Below, in pieces: positions 27,214 through 63,390 of a stretch of DNA of 64,000 nucleotides (its first letter is position 1; the number at the start of each line of letters is the position of its first letter). The notes beneath the pieces were generated by a model, which made no database searches, was not told where the DNA came from, and saw only the letters and a program-made list of their open reading frames with translations. This DNA comes from Pedobacter segetis (GTDB lineage Bacteria > Bacteroidota > Bacteroidia > Sphingobacteriales > Sphingobacteriaceae): assembly GCF_016623585.1 (NCBI RefSeq), contig NZ_JAEHFY010000021.1, positions 1-64,000 of the forward strand, in the 5' to 3' direction. A program made the translations under genes and the position numbers.

Positions 27214-27218
27214 TTTGA

Positions 27219-28802: not shown

Positions 28803-28846
28803 TCTGGATAAATTAAGATAAAAAGCCGTTTAAACATCATCAAAAA

Positions 28847-31429: not shown

Positions 31430-33511
31430 CTAATGGTAAAAAACCGATGCGGGTATTGTCTCTTTTGCCATGCCTGGTTTACTCCATTCCAAACTGATTT
31501 CATGTTTTCCAGAACCGTTGCTTGTTGTGTATAACCTAACTCGATGTAAACCGGCACCAAGATTAATACTCCCACTTTTAACAGAATTTGGGAAGTAGGC
31601 AAAATCGGCATCTACTACTACGGCATTGTTTATTTTTAATATTGCCCCGGTATTTGCAGAGACGTAAAAGGTATATCTGCCTTCTGCAGGGATTTTAATG
31701 TAACCATCAAAATAAAGACTCCCGGCTTGTTTGTTTTCCATTACGGATACATCAGGAACTGCTGTAACGCCGGAAGCATCTGGTTTTACACCCAACATTT
31801 CTGGTACCCAAGGAAAATCGCCGTTATAAGCTTTCCATAATAATCCTTTTTCTTTCGCAACTACCGCAAGTGAAGGCACCATTTCATCATCATAGGGCCT
31901 ATTGGCGGTACTGTTTGGCATACGGGATTGTAGTGCAAGATCTTTAAATTTTTGTTGAAGAGCTGCCATTTCGGGATTTTTTGCCAGATTATTCCCTTCT
32001 TGTGGATCATTTACCACATCGTAAATCTCAAAATCATCGCTTTGTTCTTTGATATCATACCTTACCCCAACAAAATTACCCAAACGTAATACCTGCATCT
32101 GGTTTCTTACCCGTGAGCGGTGTGCAGGTAAAAAATCCTTGAAATTTGGTGTTTTATCTTTCTGAAAATATTCTATATAAATATTGCTAGGTCGTTGGTC
32201 TCCCTTTTTTGTTAAAGATGGGACAAGAGATACTCCATCAGTAATTGCAGGAATTGGCGAACCTGCCATATCTATAAAGGTAGGCATCCAATCATAAGAA
32301 ATACTAGGGGTAGTGATATTATTGCCCGCCGGGATTTGCCCAGGCCACCTTGCAATAGTTGGCATACGTAAACCTCCCTCCCAACAATCACGCTTGATAC
32401 CGTCAAAAGGACCAAAACTTTTAAAGAATGTTGGCTGTATATCCTGCTTTGGCAAGTAAGACTCTATGGAAGGGCCGTTATCCGAGGTAAATACCACCAT
32501 AGTATTGTCATCGATTTTTAAATCCTTTAGCAATGCCAAAACATCACCTACTGCTTCATCAATACGGTGTACATCTGTGGCGTACCGCTTATAAACATTA
32601 GGCCAAGGTTTTTCTGGGGTTTCTTTATTGCCATCATCATCGTAAGTTGCTTTGGCATAATCTGGGTATATCCATGAATCTATTTTACCAGATGCTGTGC
32701 TGATCATTTGACCGGGCTTGCCCGTCCATTGCATACCGCCATTTAAACCTTTACCACTTGGGTAAGGTTGTGTTGGTAATTCTAGAACCGCATGAGGGGT
32801 ATCATAGGCCAAATACATGAAAAAAGGTTTGTTTTTATCCTCGCCTCTCTCATGTTTTACTATCCAACGTTTTGCGGCTGCTGTCCATAAATCAGTAGTA
32901 TAGCATTTATCCAAACCTGCCGTAATATCTATCCGGTTCTCATAAACTCTTTTTTTACCACGGTATAGGCCTTCTTTAGGATAATGTTCGTGGCCATCGC
33001 TATGACGAATATATCCCATATAGTAATCGAAACCACGGTTTAAGGGATGGGCAGACCAGTTTGGTTCATCATCTGCAATTCCTTGTAAGCCCCATTTTCC
33101 TATGGCCGCAGTGGTATAACCGCTTTTCTTTAATGCTACCGCCATGTTTAAGTTGTTCTCTAAAGCTTTATCAAACTGGTTATCCCTAACGTTCACTTCG
33201 CCCTGGCTTCTTCCCGAAATAATAGATGCTCTGGAAGGGGCACAAACAGGAGCAGCAGCATAACTTTGAGAAAGCAAAGCTCCCTGCCCGGCCATTTTAT
33301 CGAGGTTTGGTGTAAACTGCCTGGGAATACCCGATTTAAGATCAAGAGCAAGCTGGTTTTGGTAAAAAACACCCAAATCGCCATAACCTAAATCATCCGT
33401 AAGGATAAAAATAATATTGGGTTTTTGTGTTGCTTTTGAGGTTTTGGTAGTTTGTGCGTTTGCTATTACTGTAGAGGCGAGCAATAAAATTAAAGGAGCT
33501 GTTTTAAACAT
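31430..33511 (-). CDS. Sulfatase with C-terminal PA14-like domain
   Basis: This 693-residue exported protein has the signal peptide MFKTAPLILLLASTVIANAQ. The sulfatase domain occupies about residues 30-530, with metal residues in ILTDDLGYGDLGVFY, the maturation motif C90-A-P-S-R plus ASIISG, and VFTSDNGPSIES. After a linker, residues about 575-693 form a PA14-like beta domain (SLYFDGYIKIPAEGRYTFYVSANTGAILKINNAVVVDAD ... LHRVRLYTTSN ... LEWSKPG). PA14 modules often bind carbohydrate, so it may hold the enzyme on its polymer. It is the last gene of the SusCD unit. A strong terminator lies just before its start, so it is probably expressed by read-through or from an unseen promoter. Confidence 0.9.
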   Translation of the reverse strand: MFKTAPLILLLASTVIANAQTTKTSKATQKPNIIFILTDDLGYGDLGVFYQNQLALDLKSGIPRQFTPNLDKMAGQGALLSQSYAAAPVCAPSRASIISGRSQGEVNVRDNQFDKALENNLNMAVALKKSGYTTAAIGKWGLQGIADDEPNWSAHPLNRGFDYYMGYIRHSDGHEHYPKEGLYRGKKRVYENRIDITAGLDKCYTTDLWTAAAKRWIVKHERGEDKNKPFFMYLAYDTPHAVLELPTQPYPSGKGLNGGMQWTGKPGQMISTASGKIDSWIYPDYAKATYDDDGNKETPEKPWPNVYKRYATDVHRIDEAVGDVLALLKDLKIDDNTMVVFTSDNGPSIESYLPKQDIQPTFFKSFGPFDGIKRDCWEGGLRMPTIARWPGQIPAGNNITTPSISYDWMPTFIDMAGSPIPAITDGVSLVPSLTKKGDQRPSNIYIEYFQKDKTPNFKDFLPAHRSRVRNQMQVLRLGNFVGVRYDIKEQSDDFEIYDVVNDPQEGNNLAKNPEMAALQQKFKDLALQSRMPNSTANRPYDDEMVPSLAVVAKEKGLLWKAYNGDFPWVPEMLGVKPDASGVTAVPDVSVMENKQAGSLYFDGYIKIPAEGRYTFYVSANTGAILKINNAVVVDADFAYFPNSVKSGSINLGAGLHRVRLYTTSNGSGKHEISLEWSKPGMAKETIPASVFYH

Positions 33512-34506: not shown

Positions 34507-34526
34507 GATATATATTCTTTTTTGTG

Positions 34527-36254: not shown

Positions 36255-36279
36255 CTGTTTATATTTAATGTTAACTATT

Positions 36280-39063: not shown

Positions 39064-39172
39064 CTGTATAATTTTATTTGTTTAATTGGTTAAACTGTAA
39101 ATAGATAAGCATTAAAAAATGCGCACCTGTGCCATTTTAAATTAGCTCTTATTAAATCGTTAGGTGATCAAA

Positions 39173-41086: not shown

Positions 41087-41103
41087 TTTAAATATATTTT
41101 AGA

Positions 41104-44100: not shown

Positions 44101-44184
44101 TTTTACGGTACCTTTTATCAAGGTTTGGGAAAAGGCGCAACAGGAAAAAACCATTAAAAATAAAAATAAGTTGAATTGCTTCAT
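41104..44184 (-). CDS. SusC-family TonB-dependent receptor (first pair)
   Basis: This 1026-residue outer-membrane porin has a signal peptide ending CAFSQ. The N-terminal CarboxypepD-reg-like domain (about 23-95) begins LIKGTVKDASGLPVPGVGIFEKGKKNGTTTDLNGKYQI. The SLSEVVVVGYGTQKKESV segment (about 97-114) contains the TonB-interaction region, and the plug has ISTLKDGAATAVYGIRGANGVIIITTKRG. The barrel runs from about residue 225 to the C-terminal NFGINVGF. It imports glycans energised by TonB together with the SusD 17 bases downstream. PUL box C lies 109-133 bases upstream of the ATG, with a TTTG element in between, so this is the head of the SusCD transcription unit. Confidence 0.95.
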   Translation of the reverse strand: MKQFNLFLFLMVFSCCAFSQTLIKGTVKDASGLPVPGVGIFEKGKKNGTTTDLNGKYQISVAKDATLVFSLVGYTSQEIKVAGKTIIDVSMAEDIKSLSEVVVVGYGTQKKESVLSAINQIDGTKLLESGSANLTNALNGVSPGLNIVVSSGQPGSDDGQIFIRGNANPLILVDGVEIVGGFSNINPRDVESISTLKDGAATAVYGIRGANGVIIITTKRGKIGKPKVSFSSEVALRSPTTIPNLLDAYNAQSALNVGILNDLAFNSGYSSDADLAHWKSGDLPYQYPNTDWFGTMIKKSALSQNQSIDVRGGTNFVKYYASAGYLKEGDVINTQQFFDYDPKFKFSRYSFRGNLDFNLTKSTQLRTSVSNRYEDASQPRISGGNTNNLGRIFGGLYTSAPGGVVPYYPAEVLAQFPDPLYPGLVEGRFGSGSNPFADINTQGVNRNFTTVFNLDLELEQKLDFLTKGLSVTGKYNYTSLYNSSESIVWNQITSPRIDTYTLNRDGTWFSFEGRNYERPLTHIRQSEGINSNNEIGYQRLQFNYDNSFGKHNVTGLALVSRNKRLTNTQFPFFNEDYVSRFTYNYAYKYFFEVSGSYNGDETFARGYRFKFFPSVAVGYNLAREKFISDKFAALNNFKIRYSYGRTGDKSGLGNNRYQYLSFYDYQTPIERTRYYFGVNINDPLTLIGVDQLGNPTLTWATVTKQNLGIDFGLFDDKISGTIELFKEGRDGLISRRLADVPGYFGSSTQLPFSNFGASKSHGIELTLSYRNKTSFGLNYNITGFYAFNENRILFSAADGPGTPQYTQVAGKPDGVTPLLKASGYFQNIDELVNYPYSGSAGLGDYRYVDYNANGSITGDPTQDEVRFNLPIAPSNSFSLNLGGSYKGWSLSALVSGVAGHKGLIDADLAYALPSGNAAGRFEQLNYWTPSNPNAAYPALHTLSNPNLASPSTARIIDLDYIKLRSLSLGYAFDLKKSKTLSNLRLYVSGNDLLTISKVKFGDPEGNSAGSIYPIVRRVNFGINVGF

Positions 44185-46998: not shown

Positions 46999-49488
46999 TT
47001 ATAAACTAGTCTCTGAGCTATTTACTGTTTTGCCCACCGGAATTATCAATTGTTTAGAGACCAAGTTTTTTGCGCTTATCTTTATCTTTATCTCGCCCGG
47101 CTTATCGGTGCTTTGTACAAGTGCTAAACATTTACCGTTAAATGCTTTTCTTTGGCTTCCTTTACTTGAGCTTAGGTCCAAAACGTCTCCGTTTTCAACG
47201 CCTATCAATTTTCCGGGGCCGGTAACCTCAAAATTGATGAGGTTATTGGCATAAGGCACCTCGTTACCTTTTTTATCAATAATAGATATTTCTATTTGGG
47301 CAACATCTGCTTGGTTTGCGAGCATTGGTTTTGCTATCTTCTTAACAGAAAATGTATAGGCTTCTGAAGCCGTGTTTTGCACATCTGTGGCTACCACTTT
47401 ACCATTCTTTTTTGCGATAACTTTTAGCTGGCCAGGGGCATAGGGTACTTTCCAAAGGATCCTATAATCCTCAGTCATAGGTTTTTCGCCCAAAGATTTT
47501 CCGTTTAAAAACAGTTCTGCAGTATCGGCATTGGTATAGGCTATAACAGGTATCTCTACACCTTCTTTACCTGTAAGTGTCCAGTTTGGCAGTAAATGTA
47601 CCATAGGTTTATCTGTCCAAAGGCTTTGATACAGGTAATAGCTATCTGTTGGGAAATTGGCCAAATCTATTACGCCGTAATTCATTGTTCTGGCGGGCCA
47701 AGCAAAAGACTCTCCCAAATAATCAAAACCCGTCCATCTAAAACCGCCTAAAAAGTAGGTCAAATCTTTAGTGGTTCGCCAGTAATCTCTGATACTCATC
47801 CGTATAAGGTCATTATCATAAGATGAATGATATATTGGGTTTATATTTGTGAAAACTTCGTTCTTTGTTAAATCATCTTGCCAAAAAACCTTGTCTTGTA
47901 TAGAGCTGAATTTTTCTCCCTTTTCCCAAGGGGCAGGGTAATCCCTCATGCGGTATTTTGTTTGGGTCCTGTAAACGTTTCTGGTTTGCAAACCATGTGT
48001 CATTTCTGTACCGATAACGGGTTTATCCGGATTTTTTTTATGGAATTCTTCCAAGGCTCCTTTATACTCTCCATGGCCGTTAAACCCTGCTAAATCTACC
48101 CCTTTGGTAAAGTAACTACGCCCTTGAGATACCGGCCTACTGGTATCTATCGCTTTTACAAAGCTGATTAGTTTTTGTTGTGTTTCATCGGTATATCCCT
48201 TAATCTCGTTACCTATGCTCCAAATAATTACGCAGGGGTGGTTAAAGTCTCTTTTGATAAAATCGCCTAAATCTTTTCTCCACCAATCTTCAAAATAAAG
48301 CCCATAATCATATTCGGCCTTGGGTTTTTCCCAGCCATCAAAGGCTTCGTCCATAACCAAGAATCCCATTTGATCGCACAGATCATAAAACTCTGGCGCA
48401 AAAGGGTTGTGGGTTGTTCTAATTGCATTGCAACCCATTTGCTTTAACATTACCAGCCTGTTATAGAGTACATCGTAAGGAACTGCAACGCCTACCGCAC
48501 CACCATCTTGATGGTTACCAACACCTTTTAGAATGGTTTTTACACCATTAAGCAAAAAGCCTTTATCTGCACTAAACGAAATTGAGCGTACGCCAAAATT
48601 AGATTCATAAACGTCCCATGTTTTGCTTCCCTCTTTTACCTCTACTTTTAGTTTATATAAGTTTGGGGTTTCTGTTGACCATAAAAGAGGGTTTTTAAGA
48701 TTTAAGTTAAAGTTTAACTTATTGGTTCCCTTTTTTAAGGTTAGGTTTTTTTCATTTCTTACCTGTACCTCTCCATTTTTTGCAATGATATTGTAGAAAA
48801 CGCTAATCGTTTTATCGCTGGTTGTGCCGTTATCAATATCTAAATCTGTTTTTATTACCGCTTCTGTATTTTTTATCTCTGGTGTTGATATTAAAAGTCC
48901 GTTCTCTGGGACATAAATCTTTTCGGTAGCGATTACCCTTACGTGTCGGTAAATCCCCGAACCGGTGTACCACCTTCCGCTTGGTGCCTTTGAATGGTCA
49001 ACCTTTACGGCGATGATATTAAGCCCCTTTTTTAAATACGGGGTTAAATCATAAGAAAAACCTATGTATCCGTTAGGCCGGGTGCCCAATTTTATACCGT
49101 TGATCCAAACTGTAGAGTTGCAATAAACGCCATCAAACTGTATGCGCACATTTTTGTTTTGCCAGTTGGGCTGCCAATTAAAAGCTTTACGGTACCAACC
49201 GATACCTGTAGGTAAAAATGCACCTTCTACCCCTGCAGGATTATTTTTGTTATATGCTCCCTCGATACTCCAATCGTGAGGTACATTAAGTTTGCGCCAG
49301 CTATCATCTTTAAAACTAAATGCACTGGCTTTTACATCATCTCCCAATTTGAATTTCCAGTTACCATCGAAATTATAGACGATTCGGCCCGACCCATCTG
49401 TTTGCGGGTTTGCTTTACAAAAAATAGTGCTTGCAAAAACAAAAAACAATATGATGTTTAATTGCAAAAACATACGAAACTTGTTCAT
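46999..49488 (-). CDS. GH2 beta-galactosidase-like enzyme
   Basis: This 829-residue exported GH2 enzyme has an N-terminal signal and then a jelly-roll sugar-binding domain (YNFDGNWKFKLGD ... WRKLNVPHDWSIEG ... GWYRKAF). An immunoglobulin-like domain leads to the barrel with KGVGNHQDGGA, GCNAIRTTHNPFAPEFYDLCDQMGFLVMDEAFDGW, acid/base E428 in WSIGNEI and nucleophile E495 in IGTEMTHG. The C-terminal part contains a DUF4982-like region (HLLPNWTLTGKEGVEIPVIAYTNADTAELFLNGKSLG) and a last Ig-like domain. It probably removes a terminal beta-galactosyl or related beta-glycosyl unit. A 61-base spacer leads to the T9SS hydrolase gene. A weak copy D of the PUL box lies upstream. Confidence 0.92.
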   Translation of the reverse strand: MNKFRMFLQLNIILFFVFASTIFCKANPQTDGSGRIVYNFDGNWKFKLGDDVKASAFSFKDDSWRKLNVPHDWSIEGAYNKNNPAGVEGAFLPTGIGWYRKAFNWQPNWQNKNVRIQFDGVYCNSTVWINGIKLGTRPNGYIGFSYDLTPYLKKGLNIIAVKVDHSKAPSGRWYTGSGIYRHVRVIATEKIYVPENGLLISTPEIKNTEAVIKTDLDIDNGTTSDKTISVFYNIIAKNGEVQVRNEKNLTLKKGTNKLNFNLNLKNPLLWSTETPNLYKLKVEVKEGSKTWDVYESNFGVRSISFSADKGFLLNGVKTILKGVGNHQDGGAVGVAVPYDVLYNRLVMLKQMGCNAIRTTHNPFAPEFYDLCDQMGFLVMDEAFDGWEKPKAEYDYGLYFEDWWRKDLGDFIKRDFNHPCVIIWSIGNEIKGYTDETQQKLISFVKAIDTSRPVSQGRSYFTKGVDLAGFNGHGEYKGALEEFHKKNPDKPVIGTEMTHGLQTRNVYRTQTKYRMRDYPAPWEKGEKFSSIQDKVFWQDDLTKNEVFTNINPIYHSSYDNDLIRMSIRDYWRTTKDLTYFLGGFRWTGFDYLGESFAWPARTMNYGVIDLANFPTDSYYLYQSLWTDKPMVHLLPNWTLTGKEGVEIPVIAYTNADTAELFLNGKSLGEKPMTEDYRILWKVPYAPGQLKVIAKKNGKVVATDVQNTASEAYTFSVKKIAKPMLANQADVAQIEISIIDKKGNEVPYANNLINFEVTGPGKLIGVENGDVLDLSSSKGSQRKAFNGKCLALVQSTDKPGEIKIKISAKNLVSKQLIIPVGKTVNSSETSL

Positions 49489-49783: not shown

Positions 49784-52700
49784 TTAGTTTTGGTTTATAA
49801 ATTCGCTAGGTGTGCAGCCAAATTGTTCTTTAAACTTTTCACGGAAATGCTTTTGATCATTTATACCCACCATAAACGCCACTTCAGAAATATTATATTC
49901 TTCTTTCTTTATAAGTTCTGCTGCCCTTTGCAGTCTTATATCCCTAATTAATTGTACTGCTGACCTTCCCGTTAGCTCCTTTATTCTCTTATAACAACTA
50001 GATTGGCTCATTCCCATTTCTTGCACCAGTTTCTGCACAGAAAATTCTTCATTCAATAGGTTGTTAAGTACTAATTTGTAAATTTTATCAAGAAATTTCT
50101 GCTCGGAGTTGGGCAGTTTTAACGTAGAAATTTCATTTTTTGCTAAACTGGCATAGGTTGCCCTATAATTCTCCCTAGCCAACAAAATATTGGCAATTTT
50201 TCCCTTTAAAACATTGATATTAAATGGTTTGGTAATATAATCTTGCGCACCAATTTCAATCCCTTCTAGTTCATAAAGATTTGCGGTTCTGGCGGTTAAC
50301 AAAATTACTGGAATAAAAGACAGGTTGATGTCTTTTTTTAGTTTGCCCAGCATTTCCAAGCCATCCATCTCTGGCATCATAACATCACTAATGATGATAT
50401 CTGGAAGATAAAAACCTGCTTTTTCATAGCCTTCTCTACCGTTAGAAGCAAGTATAACTTTGTATTCTTTTTTTAAATGCCCATTTAAGTATCCTTGTAC
50501 CTCTGCGTTATCTTCTACCAAAAGGATACGTTTTTTTAATTCATTACCTTCAACCTCTTCTTTTGTTTCATCAGGTTCTTGGATATATTCATCGATGTAA
50601 AAAGTTCTATCATCGCTCTTTTTAAAATCCTTCAAAATAACCTCTTCACTAAAATGTTTGTTACCAAAAGGTATTTTTATGATGAACCTAGAGCCTACGT
50701 TTTCTAAGCTTTCTACTTCTATTTCTCCATGGTGTAGCTCTACCAATCCTTTTACCAATGCCAAACCAATACCAGTACCGTGGATAGATAGTGTACTTAA
50801 CGATTTTACTTGGTAATACCGGTCAAATATTCTCTGTAGATCTTTTGGAGACATCCCAATCCCTGTATCTTTTATCACTATTTCTAGGTAGTTTCCGCTC
50901 AGTTTAAATCCGTTTTGTGTTTCTGAGAAAACCCCTGGCAGCCAATCACTACCGATAGCATTAAGGGAAACCGAAATTTCTCCTTTGTTTTTAGTGTATT
51001 TAATAGCATTTGAGATCAGGTTGGTTAATATAATCTCGAAGTTATTGCGATCAAATGTTAGGTTTATTCTTTCTGGGATGCTATGAAAACGATAATCTAT
51101 ATTTTTTTCTTCGGCCAATCCTTGAAAAAAGCGATAAATCTCTTTAGTAAATGCCGTGATATTTCCTTCAGCCACGCTCAACTGCATATTCCCAGTTTCC
51201 ATTTTTCTAAAATCTAGCAACTGATTGGTTAGGTTTAATAAACGGTTAACGTTTTTACGGATGAGGCTGAGCTTATCAAGGTGTTTTCTGTTATCGCTTT
51301 CTGCTTGGATAATATCATCCAGAGGGCCATGTATAAGCGTTAAGGGTGTACGTATTTCATGAGAGATACTGGTAAAGAATTTCATCTTCTCATCGTTCAA
51401 GTTTCTCTCTTTTTCTGCAATGATCAATTCGTTCTTAAGTTGCGATTGCCGCTTTACAAACTCGGCGTAATAATAAAGCGCTATCAAAATTATTACCATG
51501 TAAATGGTATATGCCCACCAGCTAGCCCACCATGGCGGTAATATTTTAATCTCCAAAGTGCGCACATCGCTCCATAAACCATCATTATTAGATACTTTTG
51601 CCATGAACTGGTAATTGCCAGAAGGTAGGTTAGCAAAGGTTATCTTACGCTGGTCTGCGGTTAAATACACCCAATTGTTGCTGTAGCCCTCAAGTTTATA
51701 GGCATATTTGTTTTTATAGGGATTGCTATAATGCAAAGCCAGTAGCTCAATGGTAAATTCGTTCTCATTGGCCTTAAATTCTAGTTTATTTATATGATTT
51801 AGTCTTTGGTTTAGTATTATCCTGCCATGGATATTATCACCAATATTAATGGTTTTGTTCAGGATTTTAAGCTCATCAAAGATCAGTTTTGGTTTGTGCG
51901 GATTGGGAACAATTAAGGCGGGGTTAAAATAATTTAGGCCGTTTATCCCACCAAAGTATAAAATCCCCCGTTTGTTTTTAAAAGCAGCACCTATTTTAAA
52001 AGAGTTAGACTGCAAGCCATCTTTTACATCGTACACAAAAAACGTTTGCTTTTGCGGGTTAAATTTTGTTAAACCTTTACCGCCTAACCATAGATTGCCA
52101 GCGTTATCCTCCAAAATAGATTCTATATCGTTATCTGGTAATCCATCTTTTTCGGTATATCGCTTAAAACCTTCTTTTTTACCGTTTATAATGAGCTTAT
52201 TTAAACCTGCACCAAGTGCCCCAACCCATAAATCCCCTTTTGATGATCTTAAGATAGGCCAAACATAATTTGATCCTAAAGAGGTGCTATCTTTTGGGTC
52301 GAACTCATATTTTGTTACCGAAATTTTAGAGAGGTCTTTAAAACTTACCTTTAATAAACCTTTATCCCTGCTGCCAAGCCAAGCAACGCCTTTAAGTTTA
52401 GGATCTAGGTATAAAAAATTAAGATTGTTGGTTGGCAGGTAACTCTTTATGTTTAATTCTGATAAAACATTTTTGGTTGCGGCATCAATGATCACTACAC
52501 CTTTGTTAAAGGTAGCTGCCCATATTCTCCCAAAATTATCTTCTGCGGCGCCCATAATTTCGCTGGTCGGAAATTCGCCGCTAGTATCGGCCTTAAAAAT
52601 CTTTAAAAGCTGATCGTTTTTGTAAACCCATAAACCATCATAACGCTTAGAGACCCATAATTGACCATTTCTGTCTTCAAAAATAGCAGCTATATGTCCG

Positions 52701-53815
52701 TCTGTTTTTAAAAAAGAGGTGCCTGTTTTTTTATTATACTCGGTTAGTCCGCTTCGGGTCCCTATCCAATAATTATTTTGATTTTCATAAATCGCGGTAA
52801 TGTAATTATCTGGGATGGTACTGTTTTCTTTGTTGATGAGGGCGAAGGGTTTGGCCCGCAAATCAATATAATGAACGCCGCCACCAGATGTGGCAATCCA
52901 TAAAATATCGAAAGAATCTATAAATAGTTGATTAATGCGATTTGTGCTCAACAAGTTTTTTGCGTTGTAAACTTGTTTTAACTGATAATTGCCGCCCGAA
53001 TCTGGTTGCAGCCATAAAACACCCTCATCAAACAAGCCTACCCATATATCGTTTTTATAATCCTTAATCAAACTACTTACCCTGCTTAACTTTCCGTGGT
53101 ATAGCTGTTTTATTTTAGATCGGTTGTTTATCGAAAAAACGCCGTTACTTGCGCCCACCAAAAGTTGATCCCCAAGTTTTTTAATAGAAAAGGGTTGTAA
53201 AATACCTTCTTTTTCTACTGGTTTAATTTCCCCGGTATTTTGGTTAAATCGCCATAAACCATCGGCACTTGTGCAAATCCATATTTGCGACATAAATGAG
53301 CTTATGGATACAATATCGCTTTTAAAAGGCAATAAAACTCCCGAGTTTTCTACACTATCATTTTTAAGCTGAAGTTTTAACAGCTCATTTGTATTGGTAG
53401 TTACCCAAATGTTTTCTTGCTCATCTTCAATAATTTGCGTACCAAAACGGTATTTTTTCTCGCTTAACGGGATTTTTTTAAACCTGCCAGATACTGGATC
53501 ATAATAGGCTATCACATTGGTTTCGGAAGCAATCCAAATCCTGTTTTTTGAATCGCAAAGCAAAGATTTTATCCGGTTATTTGGCAAGCTATTTTCATCG
53601 TTCAGATCATTTTTAAAAACCTTGAAATCGTAACCATCAAATCTGTTTAACCCGTTATTGGTACCCAACCATATAAAGCCAGATTTATCTTGCAACATTA
53701 CGCTAACATCACTATGGCTTAGCCCTTGGTTTACAGATAACTGATTGATAAGGTGCTGAGCATGGCTAATCAAAAAAGTTAAACAGAAAAACAATATGGA
53801 GAAGACTCGCTTCAT
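49784..53815 (-). CDS. Hybrid two-component system regulator (HTCS) of the PUL
   Basis: This 1343-residue one-protein sensor-regulator has a signal peptide (1-19) and a periplasmic sensor of repeated Reg_prop beta-propeller blades (about 25-640; motif IWLGTNNGLNRFDGYDF and relatives) followed by a Y_Y_Y domain (about 690-758). A membrane helix (about 765-787) leads to HisKA with the phospho-acceptor H819 in FFTSISHEIRTPLTLIHG, a HATPase (NLISNAIKYTKN, DTGIGM, GTGIGLALVKGL), a receiver domain (about 1095-1210) with phospho-acceptor D1144 in IISDVMMPEMDG, and a C-terminal AraC helix-turn-helix (about 1240-1343). HTCS proteins bind an oligosaccharide from the target polymer and switch on their PUL. 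It has no good copy of the PUL box upstream, so it is probably expressed constitutively. Confidence 0.95.
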   Translation of the reverse strand: MKRVFSILFFCLTFLISHAQHLINQLSVNQGLSHSDVSVMLQDKSGFIWLGTNNGLNRFDGYDFKVFKNDLNDENSLPNNRIKSLLCDSKNRIWIASETNVIAYYDPVSGRFKKIPLSEKKYRFGTQIIEDEQENIWVTTNTNELLKLQLKNDSVENSGVLLPFKSDIVSISSFMSQIWICTSADGLWRFNQNTGEIKPVEKEGILQPFSIKKLGDQLLVGASNGVFSINNRSKIKQLYHGKLSRVSSLIKDYKNDIWVGLFDEGVLWLQPDSGGNYQLKQVYNAKNLLSTNRINQLFIDSFDILWIATSGGGVHYIDLRAKPFALINKENSTIPDNYITAIYENQNNYWIGTRSGLTEYNKKTGTSFLKTDGHIAAIFEDRNGQLWVSKRYDGLWVYKNDQLLKIFKADTSGEFPTSEIMGAAEDNFGRIWAATFNKGVVIIDAATKNVLSELNIKSYLPTNNLNFLYLDPKLKGVAWLGSRDKGLLKVSFKDLSKISVTKYEFDPKDSTSLGSNYVWPILRSSKGDLWVGALGAGLNKLIINGKKEGFKRYTEKDGLPDNDIESILEDNAGNLWLGGKGLTKFNPQKQTFFVYDVKDGLQSNSFKIGAAFKNKRGILYFGGINGLNYFNPALIVPNPHKPKLIFDELKILNKTINIGDNIHGRIILNQRLNHINKLEFKANENEFTIELLALHYSNPYKNKYAYKLEGYSNNWVYLTADQRKITFANLPSGNYQFMAKVSNNDGLWSDVRTLEIKILPPWWASWWAYTIYMVIILIALYYYAEFVKRQSQLKNELIIAEKERNLNDEKMKFFTSISHEIRTPLTLIHGPLDDIIQAESDNRKHLDKLSLIRKNVNRLLNLTNQLLDFRKMETGNMQLSVAEGNITAFTKEIYRFFQGLAEEKNIDYRFHSIPERINLTFDRNNFEIILTNLISNAIKYTKNKGEISVSLNAIGSDWLPGVFSETQNGFKLSGNYLEIVIKDTGIGMSPKDLQRIFDRYYQVKSLSTLSIHGTGIGLALVKGLVELHHGEIEVESLENVGSRFIIKIPFGNKHFSEEVILKDFKKSDDRTFYIDEYIQEPDETKEEVEGNELKKRILLVEDNAEVQGYLNGHLKKEYKVILASNGREGYEKAGFYLPDIIISDVMMPEMDGLEMLGKLKKDINLSFIPVILLTARTANLYELEGIEIGAQDYITKPFNINVLKGKIANILLARENYRATYASLAKNEISTLKLPNSEQKFLDKIYKLVLNNLLNEEFSVQKLVQEMGMSQSSCYKRIKELTGRSAVQLIRDIRLQRAAELIKKEEYNISEVAFMVGINDQKHFREKFKEQFGCTPSEFINQN

Positions 53816-53955: not shown

Positions 53956-56847
53956 CTATTCAATTTCTACGTTATAACCGTTAATGGCATTCCCTTTATC
54001 TCCATAAAAGTTGAGATAAACGGTCCCTTTTAAATCTTGGTTTATTTGATTTAGTTGCCCAGCTGGGCCTATTTCTTCTGGGGTCTTCCATTTTTCACCT
54101 ATTGGAGTAAGGTAGTTAAAGAAATAGACACCGCTATTTTTTGGATAATGGATGGCCGCATTTTCGGGCTGTTTGCCTTCGTTTGGTTTAAGCAGCCCTA
54201 AATAAAGATCATCTTCCGTTGCCATCCCTATGGTATGGTTGTTAAACAAATTTAACCTTGCCCAAAACCACTTGCCAAAATAGCCTTCAAACTCTGGGAA
54301 ATTATAAACGTTGCCGGGGATATTTTCTTTTTTGTTAACCTCCCACACATTCATACTGGTTCCCTGCAGCCTATTTTTGTAAACCCGGTATGGCCCTTCG
54401 CCTAACCAACGCTTACTTTTTACTGCTATTTCGGGCAAATCAAACCCTACTCCCGCATAATAATATTTTCCTTTTGGCAGGGTAAAATCATAATCTAACT
54501 TTAAAATACCATTTGGCATAACCGTCCAGATTAGATTGTTAAAACCATTTATATTTTGATAGCTGATGACCATATTGCCACCTTGCTTTTTAAGCGTTGG
54601 TTGATGCCACGTTGCAGGTTTAACATCATAAATCCCACTATCTGCCTCGGCAACAATTTGCGGGATACCAGAAATGGGGAATAGCGTACTATCTACTTGT
54701 ATAGCTACCGGCCCAAGCTTGTTTTCACTAAACTTAAACTTCACGTTGCCCGATTTGAAAAGCCATTTATCGGTTGAATCTTGTTTTACGATTTGCCCTT
54801 CAGAATTGGGCAAAAAACGAGCTAGATAATCACGTTTATCTTCAGGCAATAAACGCCAAGTCCACAATTGTTGGCCATAAGGATCAATAGCTGTAATCTC
54901 TAAGGCATCCATCTGTTTTAAATCTGCAAAGGTTGGTATTTGCAGAACGCCATTTTTACCGGGAGCTACATCAGGCCCAATCAAGTTTCCTTTTTTTAAA
55001 GTACGATAACCGTCAGAAGCCTCCATCGGCGCAGCAAAACGGATATATTTCCACTCGAAGGTGCATTGTTTAAGGTTGGTAAATGTGTATTTATTGATCA
55101 AATCGATTTTACCATTGAATGTAGAACCCAGTTTTTCTGTGGTAATTTGCACAGGAGACCATATTTCTTTTACCGCATTATAACTGCCTTTTTTTTCTTG
55201 ATTAGGGCCAACTATGCCATCAGGGGCTTTATTCCCTTGGTTATCTATTCTACCGCCTTCATCGGTACGGATGATGCCCTCATCGTACAATGCCCAAATG
55301 ATCAATCCGCCTCCAATTTTTGAATCTTCAATGGCTTTCCAATAATCAGCTAAACCTGCGCCTCCGCCCCCATCGTAAAGCGCATGCAATGTTTCATTGG
55401 GCATTACAATTTCATCTGATGCCAAACGGGAAGTTAGCTCCGCATAGGTAGGATAATATTGGGTGTTGATGAGTGGAAACCTACCCGGGTTTTTACCTGG
55501 CCAAGGTTCTGTTTTGGCTGCATTTTTATAAGGGCGGCGTTGCTGTATGTCCCATTTTAAAAACGCATCCTCTAACTCTGCATTGTGGGCCCTATGGTTA
55601 CCATTGCCCCACATCACTACTGATGGATGATTTACATCGCGAATTACCAATTCTTTAACCAATACATTGCCAATATCTGTTTTTAAAGGGCTTGACCAAC
55701 CCGGCAATTCATCTAAAACCATTAACCCAATAGAATCGCAAAGATCCAGAAAATGTACATCGGGTGGATAACAGGGCGTTCTAACGGTATTAAAATTCAA
55801 ATCTTTCATCATCCTTACGTCTGATAAATTATCTGAAGGATTTAAGCTTCTGCCAGTTTTTGGCCTAAAGCTGTGCATACTTGCGCCTTTTAACAATATA
55901 CGCTTACCATTAAGGTAAAAGCCATCGTGGTCTCGCACCTCAAAAGTGCGGAAACCAAAACGCTGCATAATGGTATGGATGGTTTTGCCTCCCTGCATAA
56001 GGGAAAGCTTTAAATTATATAGGCTTGGGAACTCTGGCGACCAAGCTTTTACATTACTGATTTTGCTTTGCAGAGCAGCACTTTCTAAAGAGCTTCCCAT
56101 TTTTATAGAAAATGGTTTTCCTATTGCTTTGCCATCAATTGTATAAACTTGGGCGGTAAGGGATTGCCCACTTTGTGCCTGATTTAGGAAAGCATCAATT
56201 TTTAGGCTTCCATCCATCTTTGCATTTAAAGCAATACGTTCTATATGTGAAACTGGCAAAATATCGATATAAACCGGACGGAATATTCCGCCAAAAAGCC
56301 AAAAGTCTGCAGAACGTTCTGAACGTTCTATTGATGTGTTTTTAGACGGCTTGCTAACTTCCACTTCAATTAAATTTTCTCCTTCTTTCACTAAATCTGA
56401 AATATTGTATGAAAACTGGGTAACGCCGCCTTGATGCACCTCGCCGGCAGGTTTGCCGTTGATGGTTACCTTTGTATCGGTCATGGAGCCATCAAAAACC
56501 AATCTAACGTATTTGTTTTTAGTATCTGGTAAGCTAAAAGTGTGTTTATAAAATCCAATTTCTGGGTTGGTTTTATAATCCTGATCATCGGTTTGGTAGG
56601 TATAATATCCAAAACCCTGTAACTCCCAGTTTGAAGGTACGGGAATACTTGTCCAGTAACCACTGTTGCGCCCCGCTGTTATTTTAAAATCCCAATTTAC
56701 GGCATCACTTGGGCCTTTGCCCGATAAATATTGACGTTGTTGTGCATCACTGCTTAAAGTTGTAAAAACAATGAGCATAAATATGCCGAGCTTTATAACA
56801 AGCAATTCGGTTTTAATCGACAATGGTTTTATTTTTGCCTTGATCAT
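53956..56847 (-). CDS. GH2-like protein with the acid/base Glu replaced by His
   Basis: This 963-residue exported GH2-type protein has a sugar-binding jelly roll (about 50-195: WTSIPVPSNWELQGFGYYTY; IGFYKHTF), an Ig-like domain and a barrel. The barrel has LLKGASMHSFRPKTGR, NFNTVRTPCYPPDVHFLDLCDSIGLMVLDE and HPSVVMWGNGNHRAHN, followed by large C-terminal beta domains. In GH2 the last motif should read GNE; here residue 418 is His (codon CAT), two or more base changes from a Glu codon. The probable nucleophile region, IVMPNETLHAL with E485, remains. The enzyme may use another acid, act on a special substrate, or only bind sugar. It is the last gene of a three-gene operon and is followed by a terminator. 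Confidence 0.8.
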   Translation of the reverse strand: MIKAKIKPLSIKTELLVIKLGIFMLIVFTTLSSDAQQRQYLSGKGPSDAVNWDFKITAGRNSGYWTSIPVPSNWELQGFGYYTYQTDDQDYKTNPEIGFYKHTFSLPDTKNKYVRLVFDGSMTDTKVTINGKPAGEVHQGGVTQFSYNISDLVKEGENLIEVEVSKPSKNTSIERSERSADFWLFGGIFRPVYIDILPVSHIERIALNAKMDGSLKIDAFLNQAQSGQSLTAQVYTIDGKAIGKPFSIKMGSSLESAALQSKISNVKAWSPEFPSLYNLKLSLMQGGKTIHTIMQRFGFRTFEVRDHDGFYLNGKRILLKGASMHSFRPKTGRSLNPSDNLSDVRMMKDLNFNTVRTPCYPPDVHFLDLCDSIGLMVLDELPGWSSPLKTDIGNVLVKELVIRDVNHPSVVMWGNGNHRAHNAELEDAFLKWDIQQRRPYKNAAKTEPWPGKNPGRFPLINTQYYPTYAELTSRLASDEIVMPNETLHALYDGGGGAGLADYWKAIEDSKIGGGLIIWALYDEGIIRTDEGGRIDNQGNKAPDGIVGPNQEKKGSYNAVKEIWSPVQITTEKLGSTFNGKIDLINKYTFTNLKQCTFEWKYIRFAAPMEASDGYRTLKKGNLIGPDVAPGKNGVLQIPTFADLKQMDALEITAIDPYGQQLWTWRLLPEDKRDYLARFLPNSEGQIVKQDSTDKWLFKSGNVKFKFSENKLGPVAIQVDSTLFPISGIPQIVAEADSGIYDVKPATWHQPTLKKQGGNMVISYQNINGFNNLIWTVMPNGILKLDYDFTLPKGKYYYAGVGFDLPEIAVKSKRWLGEGPYRVYKNRLQGTSMNVWEVNKKENIPGNVYNFPEFEGYFGKWFWARLNLFNNHTIGMATEDDLYLGLLKPNEGKQPENAAIHYPKNSGVYFFNYLTPIGEKWKTPEEIGPAGQLNQINQDLKGTVYLNFYGDKGNAINGYNVEIE

Positions 56848-58386: not shown

Positions 58387-61266
58387 TTATTTTTTAGCAT
58401 TAAAAAGCTCTTGAATGGTACTTATGCTCACTTCGGTTTGTGGGTTAAATTCTTTTGAAGCAATATAATTTAACAAGTTGTTGCGGAAAGTTTTAGTTAC
58501 CGGGCGTTTATCTAAATCGGTTTCCAAATCAATGGCACAAATCATCAATTTTCCTTTGCCAACTTTCAATTCTGATAATAGTGCCAGTTTTCTGTTGATT
58601 TTCCAAGTATCAATGGGTTGTATAGGTGCTTTATAAGATTTTGGAAAAGGGTTTACCGAATCGTACGAATCCAAAATAATGGGATGGGCGTAGGTCAATA
58701 AATCCCACCATTGCCAATTTACATGGTCTTCTGTTGGGAAATTTTTAAATACCGGATATTTGGTATCGATCAAAATACCTGCTGCTGATGACTGTCCGGC
58801 ATTTTCGCCAAAGCTTGTCCAGTAATAATTGGTAAAACAGATAGGCAGTTTACCTTTTAAATCTTCTTGAGCTGGTAAAAGCAAAACCGTTCCGCCTTTC
58901 TTTAACTTTTCTGCTACATCTGCGTTCCATTGCTTGGCAACGGTAATATTTTTTGGGATTTCCTTAACTTTAACATCTGGGAAAACCCATATATCCCAGC
59001 TATTTGTTAATTGTGGGCTTGCAGATTTCAGCTCTAAAACTAAATGGGTAGGTTGATCAACGGTGAGTTTTGGAGTAGCTATTTGACCGAGCATTTGTGC
59101 GCTGCCCTGCGCTATTTTTTGCTGTGACATATTCCATGATCGCAGTACTTTACCATCATCAGTTTTTAATTGCGCTGTAACCGATAGGTTGATATTCTCT
59201 TTACCAAAATGGCTAACCATTATATCGGCCTTAAAATCGGATAAAGAAGTAAATACTCTTTTTGGGATAGATGCCAATAATACGGTTGGTGCATTCCACT
59301 GCTTTACCATATTGGGGTTCACATAAGGTTTTGTATCGTAAAAAGCATCTGTAAACCCTACTGGTGCGGTATCTTGACCGGTAAAATCGGCCAGGCATAA
59401 CCAGTGGAAACCTGCTAAACCTTTGGTTCTATAATCAGCTTCGAACTCCTCTTTGGTTAACTGGATCTGCCACTTTCCGGATACCCTCACAAAATCGGGC
59501 ACTTGGTTTAGCATTCCTCTTTCCCGAAGTTGATCTTGGGCAATTTCAAGATAGGATGGGTTTAAGTAGCCCGTATATTTTGATATTTCATTCATCACAT
59601 CTGGGTAAGCACAGAACTGTGCATTTTCATGTTGAATCAAAGGTATATCTCTTTTTGATACACCTTCATCCCAGTTTATTGATGTACCCGGCACCTGACT
59701 TTGGAAAGCCGAATTTAAAGGTAAAGGCGGCCAGCCATCTTGATACCTGATCCTTTGAAAAGGGTTCCCGGTACCACGCAAAACCTCATAATCTATATTT
59801 TCTGGATTGCTTTTACTATTTGCTTTTATAGAATAAAGGTGGCGTGGATCGACGGTTTTCCAAGTCGCTATCAGTTGCCGAAAAAATTCTTTATCCCCAC
59901 CATTTTCATTCCCCTCTGCCAATTGCACAAAACTTGGATGGTTGCCATAACGGTTTAAAATCGCAAGACTTTCTTCCTTCAAAAAATCAAACTGGGGCTG
60001 TTTATTAACGGTTACCCATTCGCCAACCTCTGGGGCCAAATAAATCCCAATCTCATCGGCAGCAGTAAAAGCTGCTTCCGGTGGGCACCACGAGTGAAAC
60101 CTGGCCATGTTTAAACCAAAATCCTTGTAGGTTTGCCAAACCCGTTTCCATGAATTTACATCCATAGGAGTGTACCCTGTTTTAGGAAAAACCGCACAGT
60201 CCACGTTTCCACGTAAAAAAGTCTGTTGCCCGTTTATTGCAAACATTTTTCCGGCAATTCCAAAGCTGCGCATCCCAAAAGTTTGCGTGGCAACATTTAT
60301 TGTTTCAGCAGATTCTGAACCTAATTTCAGCATCAGGTTGATCTGGTATAAGTTTGCGTCAAATTCGTCCCAAAGTTTTACATCATCGCCCATAGGGAAA
60401 TTAAAATCAAAAGCATTTTCGGTAGATTTTAGCACTCCTGAAACTTTAAGAATTTTGAGTTTTTGTGCATCTCCGTTTAAGTCTTTAACACTTGCGTCCA
60501 ATAGCCATTGTGTGTTTGGGTCTGGCTGTTCGGTAACGATGGTTCCTTTTACCCTTACCAATTTTTTATTTACATCTGGATAAAGTTGAACATTTGTGAT
60601 ATGTATTGCCGATTGTGCCCTTAACTCTAGTTTGCCAATGATGCCGTTCCAAGTTCCGGCGGTTTGTTCAGAAACAGAATGTGGCTTGCCGCCTATGTTC
60701 ACTATTTCAGAATTATCAACCCTAAGCACCAAAGTGTGCCGCCCAGGTTTTATATTTTTTAAACGATAAATGTGGGGCGTACCAAGACTTCTGTTTTGCC
60801 CTATATACTCACCATCTAGCCATAACCTGGTTTCCCAATGGCAACGTTCTAAAAATAACTCAACATCTTTTTGTTCCCAACCTTTCGGGATATTTACTTG
60901 CAGGGTGTACCATGCAGCACCAATATAATGCCTGTCTGGTACTAAAAACTCTTGAAGCTTAAAATTTGATTTATCTTGGTATTTCGCCATCCAAGGGCGA
61001 TCGGTAAACCATTTGTGGAAATCCTCACCGTTCCACCATTTGGTATCAATAGATGGGATGTTACCGTAACCTTGCTCTTGCAAACAACCAGGCAACCTTA
61101 TAATGGCAGAATCTGATGGATTTTTAAACCATTTTTCTGATATACCCTTATTATCTGGATCTAACTTAAAATGCCATTCGCCAGCAAGGTTTAAAACTTC
61201 CTGAGCCAATAAAATATTTGTTTGTGCTAACAAAAAAACAAATAGAAATAAAAAGGTTCTTTTCAT
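58387..61266 (-). CDS. GH2-family glycoside hydrolase
   Basis: This 959-residue exported GH2 enzyme has the signal peptide MKRTFLFLFVFLLAQTNILLAQ. The N-terminal jelly roll (about 24-215: LNLAGEWHFKLDPDNKG; WYTLQVNIPKGWEQKDVELFLERCHWETRLWLDGEYIGQNRS) and Ig-like domain precede a barrel with QQTFLRGNVDCAVFPKTGY, FGLNMARFHSWCPPEAAFTAADEIGIYLAPEVGEW, acid/base E454 in LAEGNENGG and probable nucleophile E547 in LIQHENAQF. A long C-terminal region of about 300 residues includes a Rossmann-like segment (KKGGTVLLLPAQEDLKGKLP). Such GH2 proteins vary in specificity (galactosidase, glucuronidase and others), and this one cannot be assigned. It heads a three-gene operon behind PUL box B. Confidence 0.88.
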   Translation of the reverse strand: MKRTFLFLFVFLLAQTNILLAQEVLNLAGEWHFKLDPDNKGISEKWFKNPSDSAIIRLPGCLQEQGYGNIPSIDTKWWNGEDFHKWFTDRPWMAKYQDKSNFKLQEFLVPDRHYIGAAWYTLQVNIPKGWEQKDVELFLERCHWETRLWLDGEYIGQNRSLGTPHIYRLKNIKPGRHTLVLRVDNSEIVNIGGKPHSVSEQTAGTWNGIIGKLELRAQSAIHITNVQLYPDVNKKLVRVKGTIVTEQPDPNTQWLLDASVKDLNGDAQKLKILKVSGVLKSTENAFDFNFPMGDDVKLWDEFDANLYQINLMLKLGSESAETINVATQTFGMRSFGIAGKMFAINGQQTFLRGNVDCAVFPKTGYTPMDVNSWKRVWQTYKDFGLNMARFHSWCPPEAAFTAADEIGIYLAPEVGEWVTVNKQPQFDFLKEESLAILNRYGNHPSFVQLAEGNENGGDKEFFRQLIATWKTVDPRHLYSIKANSKSNPENIDYEVLRGTGNPFQRIRYQDGWPPLPLNSAFQSQVPGTSINWDEGVSKRDIPLIQHENAQFCAYPDVMNEISKYTGYLNPSYLEIAQDQLRERGMLNQVPDFVRVSGKWQIQLTKEEFEADYRTKGLAGFHWLCLADFTGQDTAPVGFTDAFYDTKPYVNPNMVKQWNAPTVLLASIPKRVFTSLSDFKADIMVSHFGKENINLSVTAQLKTDDGKVLRSWNMSQQKIAQGSAQMLGQIATPKLTVDQPTHLVLELKSASPQLTNSWDIWVFPDVKVKEIPKNITVAKQWNADVAEKLKKGGTVLLLPAQEDLKGKLPICFTNYYWTSFGENAGQSSAAGILIDTKYPVFKNFPTEDHVNWQWWDLLTYAHPIILDSYDSVNPFPKSYKAPIQPIDTWKINRKLALLSELKVGKGKLMICAIDLETDLDKRPVTKTFRNNLLNYIASKEFNPQTEVSISTIQELFNAKK

Positions 61267-61494: not shown

Positions 61495-63390
61495 TTATTC
61501 GCTACTTTCGCTTTCATCGATATGAATGTCTAAACTTCTTAAAAAATCCCTTCCGGCCGACTGTACATTGTAGGCTAGCTTTTTATTGGAAAGCAAACCT
61601 TGTATCGTACTTAAAAAAACCTCTCTGTTAGGCGTATAAATTAGGTAGTTGATAGTCATTAAAGCCAACAGCTCATTATCGCTTTTGATCAATTTCTTTA
61701 AATTGCTTTCTGCTTGGGTATCCTTAAATGCAGCATAAGCCACGGCACATAATGTTGATTGTGCGGGCGGGTAGTTATCATTAAGGTTAGCTAAAATTTG
61801 CTTTTTATAGGGCTGTAATAAGTTAAAGGGCTGAGAGCGTAAACCTAATGCTGCCCAATAGCGAACAATTTTATTATCGTTTGATAATAGCCCTATTTGT
61901 TGCTTAACAATAGGAGCCCCTCTTTTGCCAGCCAATGAGGCTGCGGCGTAAATTTTATCAAAAGGATATTTAGGGTTATCCAAGCGGTATAGGTAAGGGC
62001 TTGTTGTTTTCGATATTTGTGCCAGCTCATATTCGGGCAAAAACATAATATCTTTTGATGCCTTTAATTTATCATCCAGCTGTTTCCGCATTTTTTGTAA
62101 AGCGGTTGCGTAAGCTATATCGTTCACTAAATTTCTGGTTTCCCAAACATCTTTAGAAAGATCAAACAAAAACTCTGTTGGCCTATCCTCAAATAAGCTT
62201 TTTTGTAAAGGATTTAGTTTTCCTTCGGCAAAATCTTTCCGCATCTGTTTTTTAATATCGCCAATCTCCATGTAATTGATATACCTGGCCTCGTTGATAA
62301 AAGGATAGTAATTACGAGAATAGATTAGGTTTCCGTTGGTTACGGAGCGCACCATATCCACGCCATTATCCGATCTATCGCTCGATAAAATTAAATGATC
62401 AACAGGTTTTGCCCTTTTAGCACCTATTAAAACCCGACCTTCCATATATTTAGGAACATCGGCCCCAGCCAAAGCAAGCATACTTGGCGCAAGGTCTTCA
62501 AAATCAATCAGTTCGTCAGTTACTATCCCGCCTGTTTTCCATGGTGATAGGTTTTTATACATCGATGGAAACCAAGCAATAAATGGTACTCGGTAACCAT
62601 AATCAATCCCGTTGGTTTTACCACGTGGCATACCCTCGCCATGATCGGCAAAACAAAAAACAATCGTACTATCCAACAAATTATCGTCTTTTAGTTTTTG
62701 TAGCAGTTCGCCTATTTTATTGTCTGTTAATTTTATGGAGTTGTAAACACGGGCAAATTGCTTGCGCATTTCTGGGGAATCTTTATAAAAAGGCGGCATT
62801 GCAAAGTCGTTTTCGCCTATCCTATCTGCCTCGGGCAGCTCATTAATAACAGAGCTGATATATTTTGGGTATGGGAATGTCATGGTGCGAGACTGGTGCG
62901 AATCCATATAATTGAAAACCGCAAAAAATGGCTGTCCAGGTTTTCTGTTCCACCAGCCGGCTTTGCCAGAGCTTTCATCCCAGGCCTGTTTAATAAATTC
63001 TTTGGGGTTGGCTACATTATAATCAGTTTTTGAGTTGTTGGTAGTATAATACCCTGCTTTTTGCATGTAATATGGAAACCCATGTATAAAATCAGGTATT
63101 TTATAATTACTTCGATGGTTTCCTGTACCCATTTCAAAAGTTCGCACACCGGTAATGAGGGTTGAGCGGGATGGGGAACAAACTGTACCGGTAGAAAAAG
63201 CGTTGGTAAACCTAATGCCTTCGGCGGCCAGCTTATCCAGAACTGGGGTTTTGGCATCCTTGTTTCCATAACAGCCAATAAATTGAGGGGAAGTATCTTC
63301 ATAGGTGATCCATAAAATATTGGGCTTTTTTTGTGCAAAAGCAAATTGCTGAATGCAAAGCAATAACATCAAAAGCTTTAAAAATTTCAT
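61495..63390 (-). CDS. Sulfatase with C-terminal HEAT-like repeats
   Basis: This 631-residue exported sulfatase has the signal peptide MKFLKLLMLLLCIQQFAFAQ. Metal residues are in WITYEDTSPQFIGCYG (the usual DD is ED here: E31, D32), the maturation motif is C71-S-P-S-R with STLITG, and DHGEGMPRGKTNG comes later. Residues about 490-631 form an alpha-helical repeat region (IVRYWAALGLRSQPFNLLQPYKKQILANLNDNYPPAQSTLCAVAYAAF) like HEAT repeats, which could bind a partner or polymer. It uses the CSPSR variant rather than the CAPSR of the other four complete sulfatases. It ends 228 bases before the GH2 gene and is 11 bases downstream of another sulfatase, so those two are co-transcribed. Confidence 0.9.
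   Translation of the reverse strand: MKFLKLLMLLLCIQQFAFAQKKPNILWITYEDTSPQFIGCYGNKDAKTPVLDKLAAEGIRFTNAFSTGTVCSPSRSTLITGVRTFEMGTGNHRSNYKIPDFIHGFPYYMQKAGYYTTNNSKTDYNVANPKEFIKQAWDESSGKAGWWNRKPGQPFFAVFNYMDSHQSRTMTFPYPKYISSVINELPEADRIGENDFAMPPFYKDSPEMRKQFARVYNSIKLTDNKIGELLQKLKDDNLLDSTIVFCFADHGEGMPRGKTNGIDYGYRVPFIAWFPSMYKNLSPWKTGGIVTDELIDFEDLAPSMLALAGADVPKYMEGRVLIGAKRAKPVDHLILSSDRSDNGVDMVRSVTNGNLIYSRNYYPFINEARYINYMEIGDIKKQMRKDFAEGKLNPLQKSLFEDRPTEFLFDLSKDVWETRNLVNDIAYATALQKMRKQLDDKLKASKDIMFLPEYELAQISKTTSPYLYRLDNPKYPFDKIYAAASLAGKRGAPIVKQQIGLLSNDNKIVRYWAALGLRSQPFNLLQPYKKQILANLNDNYPPAQSTLCAVAYAAFKDTQAESNLKKLIKSDNELLALMTINYLIYTPNREVFLSTIQGLLSNKKLAYNVQSAGRDFLRSLDIHIDESESSE

Follow-up and report, generated by a model that had tools for sequence, protein, structure and literature searches.

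In the first 64,000 nucleotides of contig NZ_JAEHFY010000021.1 of Pedobacter segetis (hereafter the window), the minus strand carries an open reading frame (ORF) that begins with ATG and encodes a 963-residue protein of glycoside hydrolase family 2 (GH2), in which His occupies the position of the catalytic acid/base Glu; the coordinates of the gene, of its key residues, and of neighboring features are collected in Table 1. The sugar-binding, Ig-like, and TIM-barrel domains of GH2 (PF02837, PF00703, and PF02836 in Pfam) all scored above cut-off in this protein. The top-scoring named NCBIfam model was NF049891, for the exo-beta-1,4-galactosidase BT4156, with 699.5 bits over residues 26-935, which is below the 1700 bits set for an equivalog of that model.

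The first-pass annotation of this DNA had noted the replacement of the acid/base Glu by His, and both codon reading and alignment bear this out. Residue 418 is His (CAT, positions 55596-55594, minus strand) within the motif WGNGNH, in the sequence context VVMWGNGNHRAHN, and the NE usual for GH2 enzymes reads NH in the window protein and in 27 others. GNE was present at this position in all 30 BT4156-type relatives first read, which were picked by similarity alone and comprise the genome's own paralog (L002) and 29 proteins of the same taxonomic family (L009-L037); L003 and L007 show GNE, too, and L004, L005, L006, and L008 have no aligned piece across position 418. Altogether, position 418 is His in 28 rows of the alignment (14 CAC and 14 CAT) and Glu in 40 (28 GAA and 12 GAG). 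Because His is encoded here by CAC or CAT and Glu by GAA or GAG, two base changes separate the codon sets; with CAC or CAT at 27 further loci, a sequencing error, which had been judged an insufficient explanation from the start, is ruled out. The other two GH2 proteins of the locus retain GNE as had been stated, in the motifs SIGNE (46999-49488) and AEGNE (58387-61266). The nucleophile region is also kept: Glu485, in PNET, aligns with the nucleophile Glu of loop 7, and Glu is found there in 28/28 clade rows and 40/40 Glu-type relatives (PTE in 39 and PSE in 1 of the 40), with CEY in three LacZ-type rows. Displacement of the acid/base Glu by a loop, an objection that had been foreseen, is ruled out by a motif that is gapless across 68 rows and by a predicted structure that places residue 418 four residues past strand 410-414. 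Altogether, the substitution at 418 is real and is common to a clade rather than an isolated mutation.

Members of the clade were recovered with a DNA-pattern scan for HPxxxxWxNGNH in 84,980 genomes, one per species, which returned 67 stretches. Twenty-seven of these are GH2 homologs with 36-66% identity to the window protein. The remaining 40 gave no tblastn match to the query at 1e-5, appear by eye to be frames without GH2 context (in 34 cases the open frame is shorter than 300 codons), and are close to the number expected by chance from the length of the pattern (roughly estimated at 30). Bacteroidota account for 22 of the 27 homologs, including Galbibacter, Fulvivirga, Algibacter, Polaribacter, Maribacter, Zobellia, Echinicola, and others, and five come from elsewhere, i.e., two from Planctomycetota and one each from Pontiella (Kiritimatiellota), an Opitutales metagenome-assembled genome (Verrucomicrobiota), and Paraglaciecola (Pseudomonadota), so that five phyla are counted by NCBI names. 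The His clade is found mostly in bacteria that degrade algal sugars. In Zobellia amurskyensis, the His-type gene (L121:8728-11316) contains stops and a frame change near the C-terminus, which may reflect a broken gene or poor sequencing. One Algibacter contig carries two His-type GH2 genes (L111 and L116) that belong to different subgroups and lie about 74 kb apart.

A peptide-based scan for close relatives found none, and the DNA pattern alone recovered the clade. Among the matches listed for 301 genomes of the window's family, none besides the window itself exceeded 44% identity; residue 418 was read in 30 of these matches, the own paralog included. Similarity-only searches over 397, 15, 12, 10, 395, and 390 genomes, in overlapping sets and with small numbers, yielded few members and no new one; every match above 45% identity was a place already read as His; two matches at 39% identity (L145 and L149) read GNE. 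The E-value threshold was 1e-190 or 1e-180 for the sets of 397, 15, 12, and 10 genomes and 1e-228 for those of 395 and 390, a level that would hide the deepest clade members. At most two candidates per genome were scored in the 397-, 395-, and 390-genome searches, and several search centers were picked for carrying His.

Phylogenetic trees were built from an alignment of the 28 His rows and 40 BT4156-type Glu rows, all by quick searches with branch support from the Shimodaira-Hasegawa-like approximate likelihood ratio test (SH-aLRT) only. With all 68 rows and column 418 omitted, every His row fell on one side of a single branch with a support of 95. The support of this branch was 97 in a tree of 56 rows (12 near-duplicates dropped) computed under a mixture model over part of the length with seven active-site columns omitted, 98 when the tree was rooted on four other GH2 proteins, all with GNE, and 50 of the 68 rows were retained, and again 98 when three GH2_21-type and six further GH2 rows were added, in a tree where long branches meet outside the clade. 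With the root among GH2 proteins with GNE, Glu is the older residue, and in the trees built it changed to His only once. The clade sharing the His that the first-pass annotation had proposed to look for therefore exists, with 28 rows and SH-aLRT values of 95-98.

Invariant in all 68 rows are Asp181, Arg356, Glu380, Asn417, Tyr465, Glu485, His488, Trp518, Asp522, and Asp543, and most LacZ-type pocket residues are kept across the 28 His rows. Alignment with LacZ-type rows matches Asp181, Arg356, Tyr465, Glu485, His488, Trp518, and Asp543 to LacZ Asp201, Arg388, Tyr503, Glu537, His540, Trp568, and Asn604. The window protein shares its nucleophile and pocket residues with the 40 BT4156-type relatives, from which its clade differs not only by the His at the acid/base position but also at positions 414, 441-443, 464, and 484. 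Position 464 is Phe in 17 and Tyr in 11 of the 28 His rows versus His in 40/40 Glu rows, position 484, beside the nucleophile, is Asn in 25/28 versus Thr in 39/40, and positions 441-443 are mostly Lys, Asn, and Glu or Ala in the clade versus His, Pro, and Trp in the relatives. Further differences are seen at position 328 (Arg in 26/28 clade rows versus Trp in 33/40 relatives), position 421 (His in 24/28 versus Phe or Trp in 35/40), and position 540 (Lys in 16/28 versus His in 25/40). In these rows, residue 464 always changes together with residue 418, whereas residue 328 does not; two His rows lack Arg328 and two Glu rows bear it, which weakens a strict role of this residue. The net change in the clade is one carboxylate fewer and several basic residues more, and the added basic residues would, judging from their positions in the alignment, face the substrate. 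A replacement acid specific to the clade was sought among positions that are acidic in 90% or more of the clade rows and shared by no more than 20% of the remaining rows, and none was found; only Asp339 and Glu817 passed the filter, and both appear from the secondary structure of the model to lie off the active face of the barrel.

Could the protein be catalytically dead, as a binding protein or a decaying paralog? The first of these possibilities had been raised earlier, and the loss of the usual acid/base residue, the Cys at 359 in the window protein, and the disruption of the Zobellia amurskyensis copy near its C-terminus speak for a dead protein; nevertheless, all 28 clade rows keep the nucleophile and most of the pocket residues, a single clade extends across five phyla, and gene order is shared with Fulvivirga and Galbibacter, which together make a dead protein very unlikely. 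A uronate at -1, likewise suggested before, is not supported, as Asp543 never varies at a position occupied by Asn in three LacZ-type rows, in an alignment that includes no hexuronidase. At the NxK motif (loop 8) of group I GH2 beta-hexuronidases, the window protein reads GNKAPDG in this same alignment.

An AlphaFold2 model computed from the 68-row alignment had a mean predicted local distance difference test score of 89.9 and a predicted template modeling score of 0.90; the local score averaged 93 over residues 411-420 and 90 over residues 481-490. In the model, Glu485 stands four residues past the short strand 480-481, and the invariant Glu380 ends strand 376-380, the strand just before the one that precedes His418. 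The structural matches listed were beta-galactosidases, beta-glucuronidases, and other GH2-type enzymes; the top row, 6b6l_B, had a Z score of 35.5 over 479 residues, and LacZ (3dyo_A) had a Z score of 33.7 with a root mean square deviation of 4.5, 838 residues aligned, and about 20% identity. The fold thus resembles that of the Escherichia coli LacZ type over most of the length, and the catalytic motifs match in LacZ-type rows, the His at the acid/base position being the difference. In place of the LacZ loop ANIETH, which contains magnesium ligands, the window protein has LPGWS in one alignment; the Glu-type paralog also lacks the loop, and a second alignment places this loop differently.

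Gene context was counted in stretches of mostly 20 kb (three His loci are shorter than 9 kb, and the window counts cover 34 kb), with neighbors assigned by blastp to reference proteins and 11 of the 40 Glu-type loci taken in. A sulfatase is encoded in 24 of the 28 His loci, a lyase of the polysaccharide lyase family 25 (PL25) type in 7, GH106 in 11, and GH78 in 6; PL25-type, GH106, and GH78 genes were found in 0/11 Glu-type loci. The PL25 reference protein, taken from L109, has the ulvan lyase 5uam as a match (1.5e-155), and in four of the seven loci the lyase gene lies next to the His-type GH2 gene. Representative proteins encoded around clade members of various genomes also match altronate dehydratase, a mannitol-dehydrogenase-type protein, glucuronate isomerase, and a rhamnose transporter, as well as GH3, PL8, and heparinase II/III-like models.

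The polysaccharide utilization locus (PUL) of the window is of a second type, with two SusC/SusD pairs, a regulator, a GalA-like GH2, and sulfatases. Fulvivirga (L171) has the same five genes as the SusC/SusD region at 33598-44184 of the window, with 62, 64, 60, 62, and 50% identity, followed by a regulator, a GH2, a sulfatase, and the His-type GH2, and is thus a syntenic counterpart to the window PUL; this double SusC/SusD synteny suggests that the locus was transferred or is deeply conserved. The order of BT4151-like GH2, GH39-like, and His-type GH2 genes is kept in Galbibacter (L105). Two GH43 genes and another GH2 gene lie beyond the window, together with sulfatase genes and a piece carrying the small-chain domain of a beta-galactosidase. 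Altogether, the shared theme of the loci is sulfated glycans; support for ulvan is limited to part of the clade, and a sulfated or anionic substrate, as had been suggested, finds its support in this context only.

The window also holds more sulfatases, a GH115, and a GH79-like protein (under cut-off); at 25774-31294, on the plus strand and facing the main PUL, the GH79-like gene, a sulfatase, and the GH115 gene stand in a row, perhaps as part of the pathway of the main PUL. The 854-residue product of the gene at 44373-46937 bears a type 9 secretion sorting tail but only a weak glycosidase-like stretch and is possibly an unrecognized extracellular hydrolase or binding protein.

Table 1. Features of the window, with positions counted from its first nucleotide
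Feature	Position	Strand	Basis
GH2 protein, 963 residues, LacZ-like architecture, BT4156-related, acid/base Glu replaced by His	53956..56847	minus	ORF, Pfam, NCBIfam, structure matches
Codon CAT, His418, at the GH2 acid/base position	55594..55596	minus	codon reading, alignment
Glu485, aligned nucleophile (PNET)	55393..55395	minus	alignment; coordinates counted from ORF start
Tyr464, adjoining invariant Tyr465	55456..55458	minus	alignment; coordinates counted from ORF start
Hydrolase with weak GH39/GH51-like matches (Pfam GH39 under cut-off), syntenic with the His-type GH2 in Galbibacter L105	56867..58354	minus	
BT4151-like GH2 with GNE, syntenic in Galbibacter L105	58387..61266	minus	
Hybrid two-component regulator	49784..53815	minus	by-eye reading of translation
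GalA-like GH2 with GNE	46999..49488	minus	
Sulfatase	61495..63390	minus	
Two tandem SusC/SusD pairs, Fulvivirga syntenic counterparts at 60-64% identity	34527..44184	minus	
Sulfatase with PA14 domain	31430..33511	minus	

We favor, at a probability of roughly 0.56, a reading of the window protein as an exported, active retaining GH2 of a distinct clade, in which His418 would be both proton donor and proton acceptor and which would be suited to anionic substrates; the enzyme activity, the role of His418, and the substrate are what we infer. Double displacement would be retained, with Glu485 attacking C1. His418 would start out protonated, donate this proton to the leaving oxygen, and, once neutral, accept another from the incoming water. 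Where a bond lies between sulfate or carboxylate groups, as it does in ulvan and other sulfated glycans, a second carboxylate would meet repulsion, and a cationic His418 together with Arg328, His421, Lys441, and (in 16/28 rows) Lys540 would be well suited. More tentatively, and with less than even odds, a GH2 lineage of five phyla may have evolved a His as retaining acid/base in order to cut bonds beside sulfate or carboxylate in algal polysaccharides, with the change from Glu to His, the change of His464 to an aromatic residue, and the added positive charges forming one adaptation.

Several observations weigh against this interpretation. The constancy of His within the clade is built in, because the pattern that selected the rows demands His. 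Arg328 is not strictly tied to His, because the deepest clade row (L130) keeps Trp328. Position 359 is His in 40/40 Glu rows and in 22/28 clade rows, and it is Cys in the window protein and five others; the window protein has thus lost a further pocket residue. Sulfatase genes also occur in 6 of the 11 Glu-type loci. The engineered LacZ variant E461H bears the same kind of substitution at the LacZ acid/base position but is a laboratory mutant rather than an evolved clade; it reportedly shows altered metal specificity and metal inactivation (title cited in PMC10607238), which does not promise good catalysis. In addition, an Asp partner accompanies the His acid/bases of GH3, GH117, and GH156, and no counterpart for His418 was identified.

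GH2 enzymes lacking the usual acid/base are already known in GH2_21 and GH2_19, and the His clade is a new variant alongside them. According to Lebreton et al. 2025 (PMC12243196), this position changes to SD in GH2_16 and to TV, NA, or NQ in GH2_19, and it is Trp, but also Lys, Arg, or Asn, in GH2_21, where another conserved Glu is present; a GH2_21 beta-glucuronidase, attributed to the 2019 ulvan-cascade paper, works without the canonical Glu. The word "histidine" is absent from the main text of that article, and in its abstract, results, and discussion His is treated only for another position. Ulvan pathways are treated in two more papers (PMC8511951 and PMC9549685), and one further paper is cited (PMC8406133). 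GH2_21 resembles the His clade in lacking the canonical acid/base Glu and in occurring in bacteria that have ulvan genes (PMC12243196); it differs in having Trp (GNW) and another preceding loop and in forming a separate group in the tree. The window protein and the GNW protein L192 align with 77 bits and 25% identity over 375 residues, whereas a LacZ-type row gives 192 bits, and membership of the window protein in GH2_21 is ruled out by the low similarity, the loop, the motif, and the place in the tree. Of five clade genomes searched, at least three (L184, L185, and L192) encode GNW proteins close to 6hpd, which by its motif we take to be the GH2_21 ulvan beta-glucuronidase (its PDB name is beta-galactosidase); L192 scores 1303 bits to 6hpd. 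In these genomes, two types of acid/base replacement, GNW and His, are found side by side.

With GH2_21 as precedent (PMC12243196), where a beta-glucuronidase functions without the canonical Glu and Trp is combined with a different conserved Glu, another carboxylate might perform the acid/base work in the His clade, and the GNW proteins in at least three of the five clade genomes searched, together with the invariant Glu380 at the predicted end of the strand preceding the acid/base strand, could be read in this sense. We consider this unlikely: the His-clade rows shown lack the GESEDEGE-type acidic loop that the GNW rows have, Glu443 is present in just 16/28 clade rows and is Ala in the window protein, and Glu380 is not a clade-specific replacement because it is equally invariant in the Glu-type relatives. 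E402 of T2KN75, the alternative Glu of GH2_21, could not be placed in an alignment with the His clade.

Myrosinase is a case of a good leaving group cleaved without a general acid. That the His clade, too, needs none, with a good or self-assisting leaving group and His418 serving only as base or to position water, agrees with the anionic substrates made plausible by gene context and with the acid/base changes of GH2_19 (TV, NA, and NQ; PMC12243196); however, His can carry a proton and neighboring positions changed alongside it in 28 rows, making this reading quite unlikely.

Outside GH2, His serves as acid/base or general acid in GH3 NagZ/Nag3, GH117, and GH156, as proposed here for the His clade but in other families. 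An argument made for GH3 Nag3, that a cationic His admits phosphate or a different anion as the attacking group on the glycosyl enzyme, might also apply here, and the window protein would then be a phosphorylase or transglycosidase. Phosphorolysis is expected inside the cell, whereas 26/28 clade proteins carry an export-type hydrophobic N-terminus by a crude test. A 2022 review gives the His as the reason why GH3 members with a His acid/base are retaining phosphorylases, yet it places retaining phosphorylases in GH3, GH13_18, GT4, and GT35 only (PMC8950772), and we attach little credence to this alternative. For GH117, the His acid/base, its parallels in GH3 and GH156, and the Asp partner are described in PMC11574756. 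In a literature search that lacked most subscription journals, no report of a His acid/base in a natural GH2 appeared among the matches listed.

Few residues of retaining glycosidases are as conserved as the acid/base Glu. Having replaced it with His while retaining the nucleophile and most of the pocket, the His clade is a natural counterpart of LacZ E461H and offers a direct route to ask when an imidazole outperforms a carboxylate. Automatic naming of His-clade proteins as beta-galactosidases should be treated with care. The clade represents an apparently uncharacterized enzyme encoded close to ulvan lyase and sulfatase genes, and it is possibly a missing step in the breakdown of sulfated glycans; the swap of Glu for His with the remaining machinery kept suggests that charged, sulfated sugars are cleaved here by another route.

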